From assembly GCA_018334055.1 (NCBI GenBank), contig JAGXSS010000060.1, positions 1 to 53,135 of the forward strand: DNA of 53,135 nucleotides. Direction: 5' to 3'. Below, piece by piece: positions 2,591 to 29,429 of this stretch. The stretch comes from Peptococcaceae bacterium. Lineage in GTDB: Bacteria; Bacillota; UBA994. The translations under genes and the position numbers were made by a program. The notes beneath the pieces are model-generated. The model had not been told where the DNA came from. It saw only the letters and a list, made by a program, of their open reading frames with translations, and did not search any database. The first letter of the stretch is position 1, and each line of letters begins with the position of its first letter.

Positions 2591-3784
2591 CTAATTGAGG
2601 TACTGCTTGAGTATATTTACTTTGTCTAATCTTTCCCAAGGCAGATCGAGATCGGGGCGCCCAAAATGCCCATAGGCGGCCACTTGGCGGTAGATGGGGG
2701 CCCGCAAGCCGAGGTCACGGATGATGGCGGCCGGGCGCAGGTCAAAGTGCCGCGAAATTATCTCGGCCAAGACATCCTCCCCGAGCCGTCCTGTGCCAAA
2801 GGTGTCCACAGTAATGGATACCGGTTTGGCCACGCCGATAGCATAGGCCACCTGAATTTCACAGCGCTCCGCTAACCCTGCGGCCACGATGTTCTTGGCC
2901 ACATAGCGAGCTGCGTAGGCTGCGGAACGGTCGACCTTGGTGGGGTCCTTGCCACTAAAGGCGCCGCCGCCATGCCGAGCGGAACCACCGTAGGTATCGA
3001 CGATAATTTTACGCCCCGTCAATCCTGTATCCCCTTGGGGCCCGCCGACGACAAAGCGTCCGGTGGGGTTGATGTAATACTTGGTGTTGGCGTCAAGTAA
3101 ATCACGCGGAATGGTCGCTAGGACCACCTTGTTGATAATATCCTCCCTGATGGTCGACAGGGGGATGTCTGGTTTGTGCTGGGCCGATACTACCACCGTA
3201 TCCACCCTGAGCGGACGCGAGCCCTCGTACTCTACCGTCACCTGCGTCTTACCATCGGGGCGCAAGTAGGGGATGAGGCGCTGTTTGCGCACGAGGCTGA
3301 GGCGCCGCGCCAATTGATGGGCCAGGCTGATGGGCAAAGGCAGGTACTCGTCTGTCTCCCGACACGCATAGCCGAACATCATGCCCTGGTCCCCCGCGCC
3401 AAGCATGGCGGCCTCGTCATTTTCCGTCATACCTTCGCGCTGTTCAAAAGCAGCATCTACCCCCAGCGCAATGTCAGGAGATTGTTCGTCTATAGCGGTA
3501 AGCACGGCACAGGTCTCGGCGTCAAAACCAAACTTGGCACGAGTGTAGCCAATGTCGCGCACCGTCTGGCGCACCAACTTGGGTATGTCCACGTAACAGG
3601 TAGTCGAAATCTCCCCCATGACGAGCACCAGACCGGTGGTGACCGCCGTTTCGCAGGCCACCCTGGCCAAAGGGTCCAAGGTCAAGATGGCGTCAAGCAC
3701 CGCATCCGATACTTGGTCGGCAATTTTATCCGGATGACCCTCGGTGACCGATTCGGAAGTAAAAAAATGCCTAACCCCATTCAT
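2591..3784 (-). CDS. metK: S-adenosylmethionine synthetase
   Basis: MetK makes S-adenosylmethionine from ATP and methionine, releasing phosphate and pyrophosphate, in the cytoplasm. The 397-residue length is normal. The N-terminal [17 protein letters not shown] carries the ATP/methionine-binding His and Asp, [12 protein letters not shown] is the first signature, and [19 protein letters not shown] is the second (P-loop-like) signature. The start codon overlaps the stop of the upstream membrane-protein gene as ATGA, so translation is probably coupled. No SAM riboswitch is seen; the shared promoter region (4640-4683) carries an inverted repeat instead. Confidence 0.98.
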
Positions 3785-17969: not shown

Positions 17970-18042
17970 ACACTTTCAGAAGCGCACTCTCCCCTTAGTG
18001 CCCTTCGCACATCGTAAATCTGAACACTAGGAGGTCCCTTTG

Positions 18043-19458
18043 ATGACAGACACCCCTACCTACATACGCTTTTGGTCAGGCCTTACCTCAATTGGCGGAA
18101 CGGTCATCTCCCTTGATAATGGCTGCCACCGCCTCATCTTCGATTTTGGCCTCAGCTACAACCCGGGCGAAGCCTACCTTGACGGGCAAGTAAAGCTCCG
18201 CCCCACCGCTTTAGTTCAGGACCACCTGCACCTCAATATGATTCCCCCCATTGACGGTATTTATGGCCGCCGGAACATCGGTCCGAGCCTTGATTTGGTG
18301 GCAGCAGAAGAAAGTGACCGGCAGAGTGCCGTCCTCATTTCCCATTTGCATTTAGACCATATGGGCGCCATGGGTCTGGTGCATTCCGACATACCCGTCT
18401 ACCTGACGGAGGATTCCCATCGCCTTTACCAAGCCCTAGAGCATATTGGCGAAGGCGTGGCCGGGACGAGAACGTATTCAACTTGCGAGTTCGATACGCC
18501 TTTCCCCCACGGCCCGTTCACCATTACCCCACTCGCTGTGGACCACGATATACCCGGCGCCTGTTCGTTTCACATCCGGACACCGCACGGGTCACTATTA
18601 TACACCGGAGATTTTCGTCTCCACGGCCAACATCCCGAGATTGCTTACGAGTGGTTAGAAAAGGCTAAAGCTCTGGGCATTGACATTCTCATATCCGAAG
18701 GAACGACACTCCGCCCTCACGAAGAAGGCCAAAATGAGCCCTTGCTTGGTGACCCTGCCCACCCGGAGACACTCACTACGGAAGCCGCATTGCCTGTCAA
18801 GATCCTGTCGATAGTAGGAGCCACCGCTACTTTAGCTGTCTTTAATATCTACCACCGCAACTTAGTCCGCCTCGCCACCATGTTGGAAGTTGGCCAGATG
18901 AGCGGACGTGTGGTCGCCTTAGAACCTGAAACAGCCTATTTAGCGAAAAAACTGCTCGGCAGAAATGATTTTTCGGTCTATATAGGTGAAAATACGCATG
19001 CGGAACAACTAAGCGGGCAACTTACACCATGGAAAAAGGCCCTGCTGGCCGAACTACCACAGGTAACGGCCGCTATGTTGCGGCAAAATCCATCCGGGTA
19101 CTTTGTGCAAAACAGCTACCCCAACTGCCTGGAGATGCTTGATCTACTGGGCATAGGCGGCTGCTACATTCACTCTAACGGCATGCCGCTAGGCTCGTTT
19201 GACCCAGCCTACCCACGCCTAAAAAAGCTTTTAGAGCGCCTTAAGCTTGACTACCACTATGTGGGCACTTCCGGCCACGCCATTATGCAACACCTGCAGT
19301 ATGTGAGCGATGAACTTGCTCCGCGGGTCTTGGTGCCGCTCCACAGTTTTAACCCCCATCGCCTGCAGGCCAATCACGGGCAGCAACTTCTGCCTACTGT
19401 TGGCGTGGTTTATCAGATTCAGGAGGGCCTTCTCCAAGAAATCGATCGTAGCCACTAA
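18043..19458 (+). CDS. MBL-fold / beta-CASP-like metallohydrolase (RNase J/CPSF-like)
   Basis: A 471-residue metallo-beta-lactamase-fold protein. The zinc-binding motif is HLHLDHMG (His101, His103, Asp105, His106), followed by VDHDIPGACSF, LLYTGDFRLHG (bridging Asp), EGTTL and late GTSGHA and VPLHSFNPHR, the beta-CASP His motifs. That order suggests an RNA or DNA phosphodiesterase related to RNase J/CPSF, but it differs from true RNase J in length and insertions, so the substrate is unknown. ATG at 18043 has AGGAGG eight bases upstream; a TTG at 18040 is closer and less likely. It is the only plus-strand gene in the first 46 kb and is convergent with fabF. Confidence 0.85.
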   Translation: MTDTPTYIRFWSGLTSIGGTVISLDNGCHRLIFDFGLSYNPGEAYLDGQVKLRPTALVQDHLHLNMIPPIDGIYGRRNIGPSLDLVAAEESDRQSAVLISHLHLDHMGAMGLVHSDIPVYLTEDSHRLYQALEHIGEGVAGTRTYSTCEFDTPFPHGPFTITPLAVDHDIPGACSFHIRTPHGSLLYTGDFRLHGQHPEIAYEWLEKAKALGIDILISEGTTLRPHEEGQNEPLLGDPAHPETLTTEAALPVKILSIVGATATLAVFNIYHRNLVRLATMLEVGQMSGRVVALEPETAYLAKKLLGRNDFSVYIGENTHAEQLSGQLTPWKKALLAELPQVTAAMLRQNPSGYFVQNSYPNCLEMLDLLGIGGCYIHSNGMPLGSFDPAYPRLKKLLERLKLDYHYVGTSGHAIMQHLQYVSDELAPRVLVPLHSFNPHRLQANHGQQLLPTVGVVYQIQEGLLQEIDRSH

Positions 19459-19481: not shown

Positions 19482-19520
19482 AAAGAGCAGGGTCACCCAA
19501 AAAGGGTGACCCTGCTCTTT
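19482..19520. terminator. Bidirectional terminator between the MBL gene and fabF
   Basis: Perfect 17-bp stem (arms 19482-19498 and 19504-19520) with an AAAAA loop, containing GAGCAGGGTCACCC and its complement. The stem closes on AAA/TTT at each end, giving a short T-run on either strand. It sits between convergent genes. A smaller hairpin (GACGAACA/TGTGTCGTC) precedes it near 19459-19480. Confidence 0.85.
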
Positions 19521-19521
19521 A

Positions 19522-19551
19522 ATACTTACTGATACTTACTGATATTTACTG
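19522..19551. repeat. Three 10-bp tandem repeats across the fabF stop codon
   Basis: ATACTTACTG, ATACTTACTG and ATATTTACTG lie head to tail. The fabF stop codon (19536-19538) falls inside the middle copy and the last FabF residues (SKYQ) are encoded by the third. Confidence 0.85.
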
Positions 19552-20774
19552 AGCACTATGGAGCAATTGTGTCCCCCAAACCCGAAGGAGTTTTTGATGG
19601 CGGCGCGTATTGGCAGCCGCCGCGCTCCCTCTGCCACGTAATCTAGGTCACATTCAGGGTCGGGATGTTTTAGATTGATGGTGGGGTGAACCATGCCTTT
19701 TTGGATGCTCAAGACTGTGGCAATAATCTCTACTGCTCCTGCCCCACCAAGCAGATGCCCGATCATGGATTTGGTGGAGCTTATGGCTAGGCGCGATGCT
19801 TCTGTCCCAAAGACGGCCTTAATGGCCTTTGTTTCCAACCTATCGTTGAGGTCGGTAGATGTGCCGTGGGCATTGACGTAGTCAATTTGCGAGGGCGACA
19901 ATTTGGCATCGCGCAAGGCCAATTTCATGCAGCGCGTTGCTCCCTCGGCGTCCGGTTCGGGGGAGGTGATGTGGTAGGCGTCGTTGGTGGCGGCATACCC
20001 CACAATTTCCGCGTATATCCGTGCGCCGCGAGCCAACGCATGGTCAAGGCTTTCGAGGACGAGCACCCCAGCCCCTTCGCCCATGACGAAACCATCTCTC
20101 TCCTTATCGAAGGGACGACTGGCGGCAGTTGGGTTATCGTTATTCGTGCTCAAGGCGCGGGCGGCATTAAAGCCGGCAATCGCGAGCGGTGTAATGGAGC
20201 CTTCGCTGCCACCGGCCAGCATCACTTCACAATCCCCTCGCTCAATGACGCGAAAGGCATCACCCACCGCTTGGGAGCCGGCGGCACAAGCAGTGACGAT
20301 ATTGCCGGAAGGCCCCTTGAGGCCAAAGGTGATGGCGACTTGACCGGCACCCATATTGCCTATCATCATCGGTATGAAGAAGGGGCTTATTTTTTGCGGG
20401 CCTTTTTCCCGGAGCAGCGCTGCCTGCGCCTCCATGGTCTCGAGCCCGCCTATACCGGAACTGATGTAGACGCCGATGCTGGTTTTGTCGATAATATCAA
20501 GATTGATTTCGGCGTCCTTAAGGGCCAAGGCCGACGCGGCTACGGCAAACTGGGCAAACCGGTCCATGCGCTTGGCTTCCTTTTTGTCCATGTAGACAGC
20601 TGGGTCAAAATTTTTGACCTCAGCGGCAATCTGCGTGGCAAAGCCAGTCGTGTCAAAGCGCGTGATTTTAGCTACTCCGGACTGCCCAGCGAGCAGCGCT
20701 GCCCAAAAATCGCTATGCCCAATGCCAATGGGCGTGATTGCTCCGAGGCCAGTTACAACTACCCTTCTCATCAT
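19536..20774 (-). CDS. fabF: Beta-ketoacyl-ACP synthase II
   Basis: Condensing enzyme that elongates acyl-ACP with malonyl-ACP in type II fatty acid synthesis. 412 residues. Catalytic Cys163 is in VTACAAGSQAVGDAF; the two His are in NAHGTSTDLND and SMIGHLLGGAGA; the C-terminal NSFGFGGHN loop is present. Last gene of the fab operon, ten bases after acpP. Two adjacent ATG codons (20774 and 20771) could serve as start. Confidence 0.98.
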   Translation of the reverse strand: MMRRVVVTGLGAITPIGIGHSDFWAALLAGQSGVAKITRFDTTGFATQIAAEVKNFDPAVYMDKKEAKRMDRFAQFAVAASALALKDAEINLDIIDKTSIGVYISSGIGGLETMEAQAALLREKGPQKISPFFIPMMIGNMGAGQVAITFGLKGPSGNIVTACAAGSQAVGDAFRVIERGDCEVMLAGGSEGSITPLAIAGFNAARALSTNNDNPTAASRPFDKERDGFVMGEGAGVLVLESLDHALARGARIYAEIVGYAATNDAYHITSPEPDAEGATRCMKLALRDAKLSPSQIDYVNAHGTSTDLNDRLETKAIKAVFGTEASRLAISSTKSMIGHLLGGAGAVEIIATVLSIQKGMVHPTINLKHPDPECDLDYVAEGARRLPIRAAIKNSFGFGGHNCSIVLSKYQ

Positions 20775-20783
20775 GCCCTCCCC

Positions 20784-21017
20784 TTAAGCCAATTTCGCGC
20801 TGATATAGTCTAAGGCATCTTGCACCGTGCTGATTTTATCCATGTCCCCTTCGGGGATACTAATGCTAAAAGCTTCTTCCAACCCCATGACTAACTCCAC
20901 TAAGTCTAGGGAGTCCGCGCCGAGGTCTCCCTTAAATGAAGCACCGGGAACTACCATCTCTTCCTTTACGGAGAGCTTGTCGATAATAACTTGACGTACA
21001 CGCTCAAATATGTCCAT
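20784..21017 (-). CDS. acpP: Acyl carrier protein
   Basis: 77-residue acyl carrier protein. The phosphopantetheine attachment serine is Ser36 in [11 protein letters not shown]. The start is the ATG at 21017 (MDIFERVRQ), placed after a perfect AAAGGAGGTG; the longer in-frame extension to 21035 would run through that ribosome site. It lies between fabG and fabF, as in most fab operons. Confidence 0.98.
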
Positions 21018-21051
21018 CTGTACACCTCCTTTCATTGTATTTACATAGCGT

Positions 21052-21783
21052 TTACATACTCATGCCGCCGTCAACACGCAGCACCTGCCCGGTGATGTAA
21101 TCGGCCTCGGCACTAGCCAGAAAGGCTATCGCACAGGCTACCTCTGCGGGGGTGCCGGGACGGCCTTGGGGAATTGTCGCAAGAAGTGCTTTTTTAACTT
21201 CTGCGGGAAGAACAGCCGCCATGCCGGCATCAATGAAACCTGGCGCGACAGCGTTACAAGTGATACCACGCCGAGCTAGTTCCTTAGCCAGGCTCTTAGT
21301 AAAACCAATTAGGCCGGCCTTGGCCGCGGCATAATTGGCTTGTCCGACATTACCGGTGAGACCGACAACCGAGCTGACGTTTATTATCTTGCCAAAACGT
21401 TGCCTGAGCATCACCTTGGCCACAGCTCGGCAAACCAAGAAAGCCCCGGTGAGATTTACTTCTAATACGTCTTGCCAATCAGACAATTTCATGGTCAATA
21501 CTAAGGAATCGCGAGCGATGCCGGCATTGTTCACCACGACATCAATCCTGCCGTAGGTCGCAACAATGCTCGCCACCATGGCGTTGACCTCGGCTTCATC
21601 GGCTAAGTTGGCACGACAAACCTCCGCACCAAAACCCTGACTCTTAATGTTTGCGGTGATAGCTAGGGCCTCGTCTTGGCTGGCATTGTAGTGCACTAAC
21701 ACCAGGTAGCCGCGCTCAGCGAATAGCTGACAGGTAGCTCGCCCAATGCCGCCAGCCCCCCCGGTCACTAAGACGACCTTCAT
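21052..21783 (-). CDS. fabG: 3-oxoacyl-ACP reductase
   Basis: NADPH-dependent reductase of beta-ketoacyl-ACP, short-chain dehydrogenase fold, 243 residues. Cofactor loop [20 protein letters not shown], catalytic Ser in [13 protein letters not shown] and Tyr/Lys in [14 protein letters not shown]. The start overlaps the fabD stop (ATGA-type), so the genes are translationally coupled. Confidence 0.98.
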
Positions 21784-22703
21784 CTTGGCACCTCGAGAAA
21801 TTTCTCGATGTTTTCTGCCGTATCGGCCGTATAAACAGTGGCGCTTTTTTCAATGCGCCTGACAAATGAGCCCAGTGTAGCGCCCGGACCAATTTCCACA
21901 AAATGCATGAAACCATCGGCCAGAAGGCGGCGCACACAGTCCTCAAAACGCACCGGCGAACTGACTTGACGCACTAAGAGGGAAACGAGGTCGTCGCCGG
22001 TAAAATACTCAGCGGTGACGTTATTGACCACTGGAATTTGGGGTGGTTTGAGCTCTGATTTTTCTAAATGTGGGCGGAGTGCTTCCCCGGCCCCACAAAG
22101 CAAGGGAGTGTGAAAGGGCGCGCTCACCGGTAGTTTAACGACACGTTTGGCACCAAGCGCACTACACTTTTGCATCACTATTTCGACTGACTGCACTTCC
22201 CCCGCCACAGCCACCTGACCGGGGCAGTTGTAATTCGCTACGAGCACTACCCCGGCGGTGCCGGCACAGACTTCCTCGACGAGGGGAGTAGCTAAACCCA
22301 TAATAACGGCCACCGCCCCTTGACCTAAAGGCACTGCCTCCTGCATGAGGCGGCCGCGTTGGCGGACCAAGCGTATGGCAGTGCTAAAACTCAGGCTATC
22401 CGCCGCCACCAAGGCGCTGTACTCCCCTAAAGACAGACCCATTGCGGCCCTTGGTGAAATTCCGCCGGCAGCAAGGACCCGAGTTATAGCCACGCTTACG
22501 GCTAGAATAGCCGGTTGGGTGGTGGCTGTTTGGGCGAGATGCTCTGCGGGGCCGTCCCACATCACCTCACGCAAGGAAAAATCCAGCGCCCGGTCCGCCG
22601 CTGCGAAAACATCTGCCGCCACTTTGTACTTAGTGGCCAAATCCATACCCATCCCGACATACTGGCTTCCCTGTCCCGGAAAAAGAAATGCTAGTTTGTC
22701 CAT
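21780..22703 (-). CDS. fabD: Malonyl-CoA:ACP transacylase
   Basis: Loads malonyl groups onto ACP. 307 residues. FPGQGSQYVGMG near the N-terminus, nucleophile Ser91 in GLSLGEYSAL, and His in VSAPFHTPLL. It overlaps fabK by 13 bases at its start and fabG by four bases at its end. Confidence 0.98.
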   Translation of the reverse strand: MDKLAFLFPGQGSQYVGMGMDLATKYKVAADVFAAADRALDFSLREVMWDGPAEHLAQTATTQPAILAVSVAITRVLAAGGISPRAAMGLSLGEYSALVAADSLSFSTAIRLVRQRGRLMQEAVPLGQGAVAVIMGLATPLVEEVCAGTAGVVLVANYNCPGQVAVAGEVQSVEIVMQKCSALGAKRVVKLPVSAPFHTPLLCGAGEALRPHLEKSELKPPQIPVVNNVTAEYFTGDDLVSLLVRQVSSPVRFEDCVRRLLADGFMHFVEIGPGATLGSFVRRIEKSATVYTADTAENIEKFLEVPR

Positions 22704-23626
22704 ATGCGCCTCCCGAGAATTTTTTCCGCCTCCGCGAGAAGTGAGGCAATAATTTCTGCAGCAGGTCGTATGTCTTTGATTAAGGCCGCCGACTGTCCCG
22801 CCATCACCGAGCCATTGTCCATGTCGCCTTCGGCAAATGCCAGACGCAGACGACCGCTGCCAAGCACGCTCAAGTCGCTGTAGCTGGCACCGTTTTTCTC
22901 TAAGGCCGCAAGCTCCCGCGTCAGGTTATTTTTTAGGGTTCTGACGGGGCGGCCTATCGAAAGCCCACATACCACGGTATCCCTCTCGGAGGCGTCCACG
23001 ATAGCGCGCTTGTAATTGATATGGGCTTCGCACTCGTCCGCACAGATGAAACGTGTCCCAAGTTGCGCGCCTTCTGCCCCGAGCACAAAAGCAGCCGCCA
23101 TACCCCTGCCATCCGCAATACCGCCCGCCGCAATGACCGGAATACTAACGGCATCAACAATTTGTGGCAACAAAACAATGGTGCCGACCTCGCCGATATG
23201 ACCACCGGCTTCGCTGCCCTCGGCAACGATAGCATCGGCCCCCTGCCGCTCGACACGGCGCGCCATGGCCACCGATGCTACCACGGGGATGACCTTACAG
23301 CCGGCGTCCTTAAGCGTTGCCATATAAATGCCGGGGCTGCCCGCACCTGTGGTCACTACCGGCACGCGCTCCGCGGCGACCACCCCGATGACCGCTTCTG
23401 CTTCGGGAGACATCAGCAAAACATTCACTCCGAAGGGTTGGTCGGTGAGGGCCCGCACCCTGCGGATCTCCTCTCTGACCCACTGCGGGCTTGCATTCCC
23501 AGCTCCAATAATGCCTAAACCGCCCGCCTCGGAAACGGCTGCGGCAAGGGGCGCCGTGGCCACCCAAGCCATACCACCCTGAATAATGGGGTATCTTATG
23601 TTAAGAAGGGATGTCAGTCTCTGCAC
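22691..23626 (-). CDS. fabK: FMN-dependent enoyl-ACP reductase FabK
   Basis: Flavin enoyl-ACP reductase of the nitronate-monooxygenase/TIM-barrel fold, 311 residues, catalysing the last step of each elongation cycle. N-terminal YPIIQGGMAWVA, then AEGSEAGGHIG and AAGGIADGRGMAAAF for FMN phosphate binding, and GTRFICADECEAH. It starts at GTG 23626, nine bases after fabH. FabK rather than FabI implies insensitivity to triclosan-type inhibitors, which is family knowledge. Confidence 0.96.
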   Translation of the reverse strand: MQRLTSLLNIRYPIIQGGMAWVATAPLAAAVSEAGGLGIIGAGNASPQWVREEIRRVRALTDQPFGVNVLLMSPEAEAVIGVVAAERVPVVTTGAGSPGIYMATLKDAGCKVIPVVASVAMARRVERQGADAIVAEGSEAGGHIGEVGTIVLLPQIVDAVSIPVIAAGGIADGRGMAAAFVLGAEGAQLGTRFICADECEAHINYKRAIVDASERDTVVCGLSIGRPVRTLKNNLTRELAALEKNGASYSDLSVLGSGRLRLAFAEGDMDNGSVMAGQSAALIKDIRPAAEIIASLLAEAEKILGRRIWTN

Positions 23627-23635
23627 TTTTCACAC

Positions 23636-24646
23636 CTACCATTCCAATAAACATGCTCCCCAGGTCAACCCGCCGCCAAACCCAATCAGCATGATCTTTT
23701 GCCCGGGCTGAAACATCGGGGCGAACTCATGCAGGGCGATAGGGATCGAACCAGAGGACACGTTGCCGTATTTTTCGACGTTGATGGGAATTTTAGAGAG
23801 CGGCAATTTCATGCGCTTCGCAAAACCCTCAATGATGCGTAGATTGGCTTGATGTGGAATAAAATAGTCAATATCACCATAATCTAAACCCAGCTTAGAG
23901 AGAAGCGCGTCCGCGGCCTCGCCGACGATGCGCACGGCGAATTTATATACTTCCGGCCCGTTCATATGCACAAAGTGCTGCCGGGTGAGGACCGACTCGG
24001 CCGTAGCCGGACGCCTAGAACCGCCAGCCGGCAAGGTGAGCACCTCTCCTTGCGAGCCGTCAGCCCCAAGATGTACGCCGAGGATACGTGCCATTATGTT
24101 TTTTGCGTGAGGAACTGTCACCTCATCGGTCGCCATCACCCGGCTCACCACCGCCGCCCCGGCTCCATCGCCAAAGAGCACACAGGTGTTGCGGTCCTCC
24201 CAGTCCACGATGCGCGAGAGGGTTTCTGCTCCAACCACGAGGACATGTTGCCAACTGCCGGCAAAAATAGCCGTTCGCGCCAGTTCCAAGCCATAGATGA
24301 AACCTGTGCACGCGGCACTAAGGTCAAAGGCCACTGCCTTGCTTGCGCCTAACCTGGCCTGCAAAATGCAAGCGGTGGAGGGAAAGAGCATGTCCGGGGT
24401 CACGGTAGCTACGATGATGGCATCTATATTCTCTGCCTTTAGCCCGGCTTGCTCTAAGGCGCCCACTGCCGCGTAGTATGCCAAATCTGAAGTCGCCTCT
24501 TCCGGCGCAGCAATACGACGCTCTCTAATGCCCGTGCGGGAAATTATCCACTCATCTGAGGTAGCCACGACACTTTCCAACTCTTTATTCGTCACAATGC
24601 GTGAAGGCAAGTAAGCACCGGTGCCAGTAATGACGGCGGTAAACAA
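23636..24646 (-). CDS. fabH: Beta-ketoacyl-ACP synthase III
   Basis: Starts fatty acid synthesis by condensing acyl-CoA with malonyl-ACP, 336 residues. Catalytic Cys113 in DLSAACTGFIYGL, His in FIPHQANLRII and Asn in KYGNVSSGSIP form the triad. First gene of the operon. The start is a TTG at 24646 with GAGGGGGTG just upstream. Expression should be set by the promoter-palindrome at 24685-24746. Confidence 0.97.
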   Translation of the reverse strand: MFTAVITGTGAYLPSRIVTNKELESVVATSDEWIISRTGIRERRIAAPEEATSDLAYYAAVGALEQAGLKAENIDAIIVATVTPDMLFPSTACILQARLGASKAVAFDLSAACTGFIYGLELARTAIFAGSWQHVLVVGAETLSRIVDWEDRNTCVLFGDGAGAAVVSRVMATDEVTVPHAKNIMARILGVHLGADGSQGEVLTLPAGGSRRPATAESVLTRQHFVHMNGPEVYKFAVRIVGEAADALLSKLGLDYGDIDYFIPHQANLRIIEGFAKRMKLPLSKIPINVEKYGNVSSGSIPIALHEFAPMFQPGQKIMLIGFGGGLTWGACLLEW

Positions 24647-24684: not shown

Positions 24685-24746
24685 AAGTGGCAGTGTGCAC
24701 ATTTTGTGCACACTGCCACTTTACACCCTCCAAATTGTTTTGTCAA
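24685..24746 (-). promoter_or_regulatory. fab operon promoter with a perfect 37-bp palindromic operator
   Basis: On the minus strand a -35 TTGACA (24741-24746), a 17-base spacer and -10 TAAAGT (24718-24723) make a good vegetative promoter. Starting inside the -10 is an exact inverted repeat: 17-base arms 24685-24701 and 24705-24721 around three bases (inner part TGTGCACA). No U-run follows it on the minus strand, so it is not a terminator for fab. Its position over the -10 and start site is where a repressor would act. It does not look like the FapR operator I know from Bacillus, and no regulator gene is adjacent. Confidence 0.75.
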
Positions 24747-24776
24747 TAGCGCTGTAAAAACTTAAGACTAACGCAT

Positions 24777-24806
24777 AAAAGCCGCCGACTTTCGTCAGCG
24801 GCTTTT
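24777..24806 (-). terminator. Terminator of the solute-binding protein gene
   Basis: AAAAGCCGC (24777-24785) pairs with GCGGCTTTT (24798-24806), with GAC/GTC pairing inside around one mismatch and a four-base loop. On the minus strand the stem ends in CTTTTAT. It lies 24 bases past the stop of the gene at 24830. Confidence 0.8.
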
Positions 24807-24829
24807 ATTGCCCTCAGATGAAAGGCAGA

Positions 24830-26800
24830 CTATCTGCCGGGAGCAATAAAGAGTGTCTCTGGGAACGATAGGCCACGTATGCCCACCACTCCGCCTTGAA
24901 TGCGGTTATGGATGCCTACCACGCCATTTCTGGCCTGCAAGAAGATGTAGGGCAACAGTTGGTTCAAGCGTACATCAAGTTGCTGGTAGATTTTCTTGCG
25001 TTCGGTCTCGTCCATAGTGGTGCGCCCGAGCATAATAAGGCGGTCGACTTCGGCGTCATTCAATTGCATGTTGTTCATACCGATATTGCGCCTGGTAACC
25101 GGGTCTAGGCCTTGGCTGGAGTGGAAAATGGTGAATGAATCGGGCTCCTCGGCAAAACTCCAGCCCATGATATTCATATCAAAATTCACCACATTGAGCC
25201 TTTCCACGAGGACAGACCACTCCAATACCTCAGCACGCAGTTCTACGCCAATAAGACGCCATTGACTGGTAAGCATAGCTAGGGTGTCGTGGCGCTCCGG
25301 TATGCCGGTGCGGATGAGGAAACGGAAAGACAATCTCTCCCCGGCAGCGTTGGTACGAATACCGTCCCGACCGACGGTGGTAAAGCCGGCCTGCCGCAGA
25401 AGATCAATGGCACGATTACGGCTATGCGGGTACCTGTAGAGATTGGGGTTATGGGCCCAGTGTGAGGGGGGAAGATGCCCGTTAACGATGTCAGCGCGAT
25501 GGTTATAGACCGAGCGCACAATGGCTTCGCGGTCCGCTCCGTACATAAGTGCTTGGCGCACCCTAATGTCCCGAAGAATAGGGTGGGTTAAGTTAAGACC
25601 GATATAGTCGTAGCCGAAAATCGCCGGAATCTCGAAGAAGTTGGCCCTGTTAGCAAAGCGTGCCATGACGGTATCGATTTGGTCTGGAGGGATGGCGGCA
25701 CCCCAGTCAATGTCCCCATTTTCCCAAGCGGCATGAAGGACGCTGGAATCGGGATAGGTCTTAATAATGATTCTCTCGATGAAAGGACCATCTAAGTGCC
25801 AGTTGGGATTGCGCGCTAATTCAACAAATTGACCCCTGACCCATCTGACAAATCTGTAGGGGCCTGTCCCTATGGGATTAATGCTAAAGTTATGGGCAGC
25901 CATATCTCTAACCGCGGTTCCCTGAAAAACATGCTGCGGGATAATACCCATGGACATACGCCCTAAGAATGGGGCATCTTGGACTCTCAGTCTAAAGTCG
26001 ACGACATGCTCATTGACAACCGTAATTGCCTCTACAGCGGCTACATCGCCCCGACGGCGACCTGTGTATTCCGGATGAAGAATGGTGTCAAAGGTAAATT
26101 TAACGTCATTGGCAGTCAAGGGCCTGCCGTCATGCCATACCAGCCCCGGCCGCAACCAGAAACGCCAAGTCATGGTTTGGGGGAACCACTGCCACCTGTC
26201 AGCCAGGGCGTTGATGATCTCGCCGTTTTGATCGCGACGCACCAGACCGAGGTTGGTACGGGAGAGGACAAAGGCGGACTCAGTGTCGTTAGCCAAGATT
26301 GGGTTTAGCACTACCGGGTCGGCGATGCGACCATGGGTAATGACGCCGCCGACCTGCGGCAGAGTGGGGAGGGTGGCAGCAACGGTCACGGTATTTGTGG
26401 CCGCGACCCATTCAACCTGCGCTCCCATGCTCTCAGCGATAAAGCGCAGCGGCACCATGGTGCGGCCGTTGATAACTTGAGGAGCCACATCTAAAGCCAC
26501 CGCAGGGCCGTTAACCCAAGCAGTACGGCTGCCGATGGTGAGGACCACAGCCTGCCGCCCTCTGTAACCGGCAACAGTGTTTGTGGCTTCATCCCAGGTC
26601 ACCCGGGCGCCAAGAGCCTCAAAAATTGCGCGGAAGGGGACCAAGGTGCGCCCATTACGAATAACAGGAGCGACGTCGGCGACGAGGGGACGCCCGTTAA
26701 ATGTGATGTTGATGGTACTGGCGCGAGCCGGAGAGGCGCCTAGTTCGAAGACCGTGAGTAGGACAGCCACCAGGACGAGAATCGTTAAGATTTTTCGCAA
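24830..26800 (-). CDS. Family 5 (peptide-type) ABC solute-binding protein with N-terminal copper-amine-oxidase-like stalk domain
   Basis: 656 residues. A signal peptide (LTILVLVAVLLTVFELG...ARA) is followed by a stalk domain of the copper amine oxidase N1 type with paired motifs TLVPFRAIFEALGARVTWD and TMVPLRFIAESMGAQVEW (about residues 30-150). A family 5 substrate-binding domain fills the rest (RTNLGLVRRD, WLRPGLVWHDGRPLTANDVK, NPIGTGPYRFV). Family 5 proteins feed peptides or nickel to Dpp/Opp importers, but no permease or ATPase gene is nearby, so this is an orphan receptor. No lipobox Cys is seen, so the stalk may tether it to the envelope. Start TTG at 26800 after AAAGGAGG. Confidence 0.92.
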   Translation of the reverse strand: MRKILTILVLVAVLLTVFELGASPARASTINITFNGRPLVADVAPVIRNGRTLVPFRAIFEALGARVTWDEATNTVAGYRGRQAVVLTIGSRTAWVNGPAVALDVAPQVINGRTMVPLRFIAESMGAQVEWVAATNTVTVAATLPTLPQVGGVITHGRIADPVVLNPILANDTESAFVLSRTNLGLVRRDQNGEIINALADRWQWFPQTMTWRFWLRPGLVWHDGRPLTANDVKFTFDTILHPEYTGRRRGDVAAVEAITVVNEHVVDFRLRVQDAPFLGRMSMGIIPQHVFQGTAVRDMAAHNFSINPIGTGPYRFVRWVRGQFVELARNPNWHLDGPFIERIIIKTYPDSSVLHAAWENGDIDWGAAIPPDQIDTVMARFANRANFFEIPAIFGYDYIGLNLTHPILRDIRVRQALMYGADREAIVRSVYNHRADIVNGHLPPSHWAHNPNLYRYPHSRNRAIDLLRQAGFTTVGRDGIRTNAAGERLSFRFLIRTGIPERHDTLAMLTSQWRLIGVELRAEVLEWSVLVERLNVVNFDMNIMGWSFAEEPDSFTIFHSSQGLDPVTRRNIGMNNMQLNDAEVDRLIMLGRTTMDETERKKIYQQLDVRLNQLLPYIFLQARNGVVGIHNRIQGGVVGIRGLSFPETLFIAPGR

Positions 26801-29006: not shown

Positions 29007-29429
29007 TTATTTCAGCGCAAAAAGGAGTTGCCCCGAGGCGACTAATTGATCGCCGACAAAAGCCTTAGCCATGCCTTTGCCAATACCAAACTTGAGCCCT
29101 TGTAACTCTACCTCTAAGCGCAGACCATCCCCCGGACGCACCTCGGCCCTAAAGCGCACCGCATCTATGCCCGCGAACAGGGCCAATTTACCCTGGTGTT
29201 CCGGCACGGAGAGCAAAGCCACTGCACCTACTTGCGCTAAAGCCTCGACAATCAGGACGCCCGGCATGATGGGATAGTCAGGGAAGTGACCGCCAAAGAA
29301 TGGTTCGTTGATGGTCACTTGTTTGTGACCCACCGCCCTTACCCCAGGGGTAAGTTCCGATACACGATCGATGAGCAAGAAGGGATACCGATGGGGGATA
29401 ATCTTTTTGATGTCATCTATGTTGAGCAT
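29007..29429 (-). CDS. fabZ: 3-hydroxyacyl-ACP dehydratase
   Basis: Dehydrates beta-hydroxyacyl-ACP in fatty acid elongation, 140 residues, hot-dog fold. Catalytic His in [15 protein letters not shown] with the following Glu in [19 protein letters not shown] at the N-terminus. It is separate from the main fab operon and lies one base after mbl, an arrangement also known from Bacillus. Confidence 0.97.

Follow-up and report, generated by a model that had tools for sequence, protein, structure and literature searches.

A perfect palindrome at a fab operon promoter points to a candidate regulator of fatty-acid synthesis in Peptococcaceae and their relatives

Why should the promoter of a fatty-acid synthesis operon carry a perfect palindrome of 37 bp? 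The question is raised by the window analysed here, a whole stretch of 53,135 nucleotides from a Peptococcaceae bacterium, in which six genes confirmed with NCBIfam profiles lie on the minus strand downstream of the palindrome in the order fabH-fabK-fabD-fabG-acpP-fabF. The first gene, fabH (23636-24646, TIGR00747), has a TTG start at 24646 and is followed by fabK (22691-23626, TIGR03151, above the cut-off), fabD (21780-22703, TIGR00128), fabG (21052-21783, TIGR01830), the acyl carrier protein gene acpP (20784-21035), and fabF (19536-20774, TIGR03150), the last gene of the operon. The upstream gene on the same strand (24830-26800) probably has its own intrinsic terminator at 24775-24808, a minus-strand inverted repeat whose second arm ends in GGCTTTTAT on that strand, so the fab operon should make its own transcript.

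An inverted-repeat search of the window placed the palindrome at 24685-24721, with two 17-nt arms (24685-24701 and 24705-24721) that are 100% complementary and separated by a 3-nt gap; on the plus strand the element reads AAGTGGCAGTGTGCACA-TTT-TGTGCACACTGCCACTT. The fabH promoter, read on the minus strand, consists of a -35 hexamer TTGACA (24741-24746) and a -10 hexamer TAAAGT (24718-24723) with a spacer of 17 nt, and the palindrome begins within the -10 and covers the predicted transcription start. Our inverted-repeat and promoter scans thus confirmed the arrangement described in an earlier note on this DNA, a TTGACA-17-TAAAGT promoter with an exact 17+3+17 repeat starting in the -10. When the 183-nt intergenic region was shuffled 1000 times by mononucleotide, the longest perfect arm was 11 nt and the usual length 4-6; shuffling the whole window three times yielded longest perfect arms of 9-10. 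That the palindrome lacks a U-run, and hence is no terminator, had also been claimed and held up: the terminator scan found nothing at 24685-24721, the second arm is followed by GGTAAATTG, and we rejected an intrinsic terminator as the identity of the element. A mobile or dispersed repeat was rejected as well, since the palindrome is single-copy in its genome.

To see how the element fares in relatives, we compared the window genome (G000) with the seven other genomes of its family, f1; most of the compared genomes are metagenome assemblies. A close fabH was found in seven of the eight (69-100% identity; in G005 the gene is split over two frames), while G003 has only a distant paralogue. All seven of these fabH promoters have TTGACA, a TATAAT-like hexamer (TATAAT itself in G005, G006, and G007), and a palindrome that stops 31-38 nt ahead of the matched start, so the check for the palindrome in relatives returned the same promoter position wherever a close fabH exists. 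Within the element, the core GTGCAC-N5/6-GTGCAC is invariant across the f1 fabH promoters. Each of the seven genomes has a single place with the pattern GTGCAC-N3-7-GTGCAC and G003 has none, which settled the question of a mobile element in the negative.

The two parts of the palindrome are conserved differently. In the alignment of the elements, seven core pairs are constant and the outer pairs vary, mostly while still pairing. Changes on both sides were counted in 14 cells of the outer arms, compared to 5.8 in shuffles, a value reached by none of 500 shuffles; the covariation score was 0.294 against 0.118 in shuffles, and sliding the arms gave nothing comparable. One example is the paired change between G000 and G001, in which GTGGCAG becomes GTAGCAG on both arms. 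The outer symmetry extends over 9-10 bp at fabH in five of the seven genomes. The core is therefore conserved in sequence, and in the outer arms symmetry alone is conserved. This narrows the conserved part of the probable operator to the inner form TGTGCACA-N3/4-TGTGCACA, present in the window as TGTGCACA-N3-TGTGCACA at 24694-24712, with outer arms that keep only their symmetry.

A scan for TGTGCACN{4,6}GTGCACA over 398 genomes of the phylum gave matches in 27. Outside f1, the sites lie just before a class III aminotransferase, an acyl-ACP-reductase-like gene, fabK, and the gene of an uncharacterised helix-turn-helix protein of ~180 aa that we label REG; several other matches look like chance. 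In the window genome, REG lies on a contig outside the window (C86:3228-3773, minus strand), where the search for REG in the class matched 3234-3743. Its product gave only weak helix-turn-helix matches, the one to Pfam HTH_3 at 25.6 bits (cut-off 23), and 18 of 21 REG members match HTH_3 at E <= 0.01. Pfam and NCBIfam profile searches recognised no domain in the C-terminal part of REG and gave no match for the next gene, its partner; neither protein is covered by a full-length family in these collections. The third gene of the f1 REG operon resembles a long-chain acyl-ACP reductase, with E 1e-34 to TIGR04058 (a score under the cut-off of that profile) and E 9e-26 to PDB 6jzq.

All eight f1 genomes carry REG and its partner, as do the f3 genomes, and all eight f1 REG promoters have TGTNNACA-N4-(t/c/a)GTGCACA immediately following a TAGAAT-like -10, in the same geometry as at fabH. 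The window fabH promoter itself has a site of the TGTNNACA-N3/4-TGTGCACA type just downstream of its -10. The 12-base form GTGCACN{4,5}TGTNNACA occurs at exactly two places in the window genome, the fabH and REG promoters, and likewise just at these promoters in G005 and G006; the other f1 members have it at fabH and REG (G003 only at REG) and at no more than two further places each. In G004 the two operons are physically linked, with the order dusB, fabH, fabK, fabD, fabG, acpP, fabF, REG, partner, and acyl-ACP-reductase-like gene; fabH and REG are each preceded by a site there. The neighbourhoods of genes named fabH contained no REG within the flanks examined, which indicates that in most lineages the two genes are not neighbours, and no REG was found on plasmids. 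As a separate observation, G003 (L173) keeps REG, the REG operon, and the REG promoter site, yet has no detectable close fabH in an assembly rated 95% complete.

Two sister families and one distant genome were informative about where such sites go. In f3 (G011, G013, and G014), TGTACACA-N4-TGTGCACA follows just after the fabH -10, and a second site, TGTGCACA-N4-GTTGCACA, lies ~50 bp upstream, inside another long palindrome that overlaps the fabH -35 (L278-L280). REG and its partner were not found in the three f2 genomes, and the f2 fabH genes (G008 and G010) have no REG-type site; there, a MarR gene directly upstream of fabH matches the FabT profile at E 1e-43. A FabT-like gene beside fabH was thus seen only in f2, the family without REG. 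In the distant, REG-positive genome G240, a site stands before fabK and none at its fabH. Apart from this pattern, we observed that fabZ adjoins fabH in f3, that in G013 fabZ is preceded by a near-site, and that the upstream palindrome in G011 and G013 also resembles an intrinsic terminator of fabZ.

FapR of Bacillus and FabT of streptococci and some clostridia repress fab genes from such positions, at other sequences. The operator form TGTGCACA-N3/4-TGTGCACA looks unlike the 17-bp FapR consensus, and the palindrome looks unlike the FabT site too. FapR combines a helix-turn-helix with a hot-dog malonyl-CoA domain, unlike REG, in which an HTH_3-like domain was the only one recognised. The FapR profile NF003359 detected nothing in any of 15 genomes of the class (one of 14 control genomes was over the cut-off), leaving FapR unsupported as the regulator. 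FabT is the repressor of a fab operon with a similar set of genes and is itself encoded next to fabH, and the FabT-like gene of f2 is placed alike; the window has no MarR gene beside fabH. FabT was also left unsupported, given that the window genome has only generic MarR matches to its profile, of about 29 bits or less, compared with E 1e-43 for the gene beside f2 fabH. The earlier suggestion that a different and perhaps undescribed regulator acts at this promoter gained support from these results, namely the undetected FapR, the restriction of the FabT-like gene to f2, and the finding of REG as a candidate.

In other respects the FapR system of Bacillus, Staphylococcus, and C. difficile resembles that of REG, with a promoter-proximal repeat and a site at the regulator's own promoter. 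FapR binds 17-bp inverted repeats that lie in fab promoters or a short way downstream of them, has a site at its own promoter, and controls a small lipid regulon; in S. aureus, two FapR dimers occupy one DNA site (PMC5052256). A paper on C. bescii concerns a genuine FapR (PMC7071700). Archaeal and C-protein/Xre helix-turn-helix regulators (PDB 8hnp, 3vk0, and 3clc) show weak similarity to REG, mainly in the helix-turn-helix (E 0.0006-0.24); the 110 C-terminal residues of REG gave nothing convincing, and there is no functional link. We found no description of this regulator in the open-access literature.

The 37-bp palindrome is very probably the docking site, or operator, of a FASII repressor. 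REG is the best candidate for this regulator, and belongs to a widespread helix-turn-helix family for which we found no description. We give a probability of roughly 0.78 to the reading in which REG represses FASII and its own operon through this operator and is released by a fatty-acid-derived ligand. In such a mechanism, REG, as one dimer or a dimer pair, would bind TGTGCACA-N3/4-TGTGCACA just downstream of the -10, where it would block RNA polymerase and so repress fabH-K-D-G-acpP-fabF. It would repress its own operon (REG, partner, and the acyl-ACP-reductase-like gene) through TGTATACA-N4-CGTGCACA, likewise after the -10, and a fatty-acid-derived ligand of its C-terminal domain would release it. 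We infer the binding, the sign of the regulation, and the ligand; repression fits because the sites follow the -10 at both promoters and because of the proposed autoregulation and the tight two-operon pattern, as in FapR. The operator contains two self-complementary 8-mers whose centres lie 11-12 bp from each other, roughly a full turn of the helix, a spacing with which both two REG dimers on one face and one dimer with extended contacts would be possible. The spacing between half-sites counts against REG, as it is N3 at fabH in six of the seven f1 genomes, whereas the REG promoters of those genomes and the f3 sites have N4; this objection is offset by an N3 site at the REG promoter of G047 and an N4 site at fabH of G004.

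We weighed three other explanations against this reading. The site could be the operator of another factor, such as a MarR or TetR protein, and merely resemble a REG site, which we consider unlikely. Control of fab genes by MarR proteins is usual in some Bacillota, the window genome has two weak MarR matches elsewhere, and an exact TGTGCACA-N3-TGTGCACA site lies upstream of a MarR-ABC transporter operon in G342 and G049 (L116 and L117, 1501-1519), where it may be either a REG target or a MarR operator. However, the motif places in the window genome are just those at fabH and REG, REG follows fabF in G004, the fab sites of f3 have the N4 form of REG sites, and f1 has no MarR of FabT grade and no detected FapR. 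The palindrome could instead act as RNA, with a hairpin in the 5' leader that stabilises or attenuates the fab mRNA and complementarity selected in the transcript. The strong covariation of the outer arms (14 two-sided cells, 0/500 shuffles) would be expected of such an element, and folding of the full element is much stronger than that of shuffled sequences (z -7.3). Yet the predicted start falls inside the first arm, so that the transcript would lack the outer 5' arm and with it part of the -10; the long palindrome of f3 sits upstream of the -10, where it overlaps the -35, outside any fabH mRNA from that promoter; and the core is invariant in sequence, which is more than structure alone needs. 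We regard a role in RNA as very improbable.

The remaining explanation concerns the outer arms only and complements the operator reading. The symmetry could be a mutational by-product of hairpin template switching, which copies one arm onto the other, so that a protein-selected core grew into a long palindrome whose arms are functionless. The paired changes between G000 and G001 are of the kind that such copying would leave. The sites at REG promoters have an outer symmetry of merely 1-3 bp; REG binding thus seemingly has no need of the arms, and REG alone leaves the extra 9-10 bp at fabH unexplained. The recurrence of this symmetry in five of the seven genomes, and again at the differently placed element of f3, could equally reflect selection, and the arms may have a role in DNA extrusion or make extra protein contacts. 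Template switching is the simplest account of the outer arms, and we hold it tentatively, at somewhat less than even odds.

To explore how far the proposed regulon extends, we scanned the phylum with fixed patterns. A REG gene turned up in 154 of the 249 genomes sampled, and TGTGCACA-N4-TGTGCACA with at most one mismatch in 134 of 398, compared to about 10 with a reversed control. The motif was present in 86 of the 154 REG-positive genomes, an association whose test ignores phylogenetic relatedness and uses an approximate REG-negative set. The remaining motif genomes include G013 and G014, which were REG-positive in the class search, the unscored G169, and G048, the sole clear REG-negative; its site is at an aminotransferase, which counts against the REG reading. 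Among the fetched sites, 28 precede REG, 14 precede the class III aminotransferase, and 12 precede a BioF/serine-palmitoyltransferase-like gene; a few others stand ahead of the acyl-ACP-reductase-like gene, fabH, or fabZ. These counts are not unbiased because second sites were sought out deliberately. The sites before BioF/serine-palmitoyltransferase-like genes, seen in several genomes of the phylum ~20 nt ahead of the gene (L238, L239, L242, L244, and others), suggest a shared amino-lipid or oxoamine pathway, and the acyl-ACP-reductase-like, class III aminotransferase, and BioF/SPT-like genes together suggest one lipid pathway in these bacteria.

On balance, we lean towards REG being a third class of FASII regulator in these Gram-positive lineages, beside FapR and FabT. 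It would be an undescribed helix-turn-helix family in roughly 60% of the sampled phylum genomes, autoregulated via TGTNNACA-N4-TGTGCACA, with a regulon that joins FASII (in at least three lineages) to enzymes that make aldehydes, amines, or oxoamines from acyl chains; across most of the class to which the window belongs, it would take the place of FabT or FapR. For anaerobic Gram-positive bacteria without FapR or FabT, this offers a candidate FASII control for which a protein family can be named along with a precise operator and a short target list, and it provides a functional hook for the unannotated conserved genes of REG and its partner.

A few other features of the window were observed. 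A fabZ gene (29007-29429, minus strand) lies apart from the fab operon, near MreB-like and SpoIIID-like genes, and no REG-type site was found near it. The gene at 24830-26800 (minus strand) encodes an SBP_bac_5 solute-binding protein with an N-terminal Cu_amine_oxidN1 domain, a fusion that looks unusual. At the far end of the operon, a second perfect 17-bp inverted repeat with a 5-nt loop (19482-19520) stands in the gap between fabF and a convergent gene with a metallo-beta-lactamase fold (18040-19458), and is probably a bidirectional terminator.
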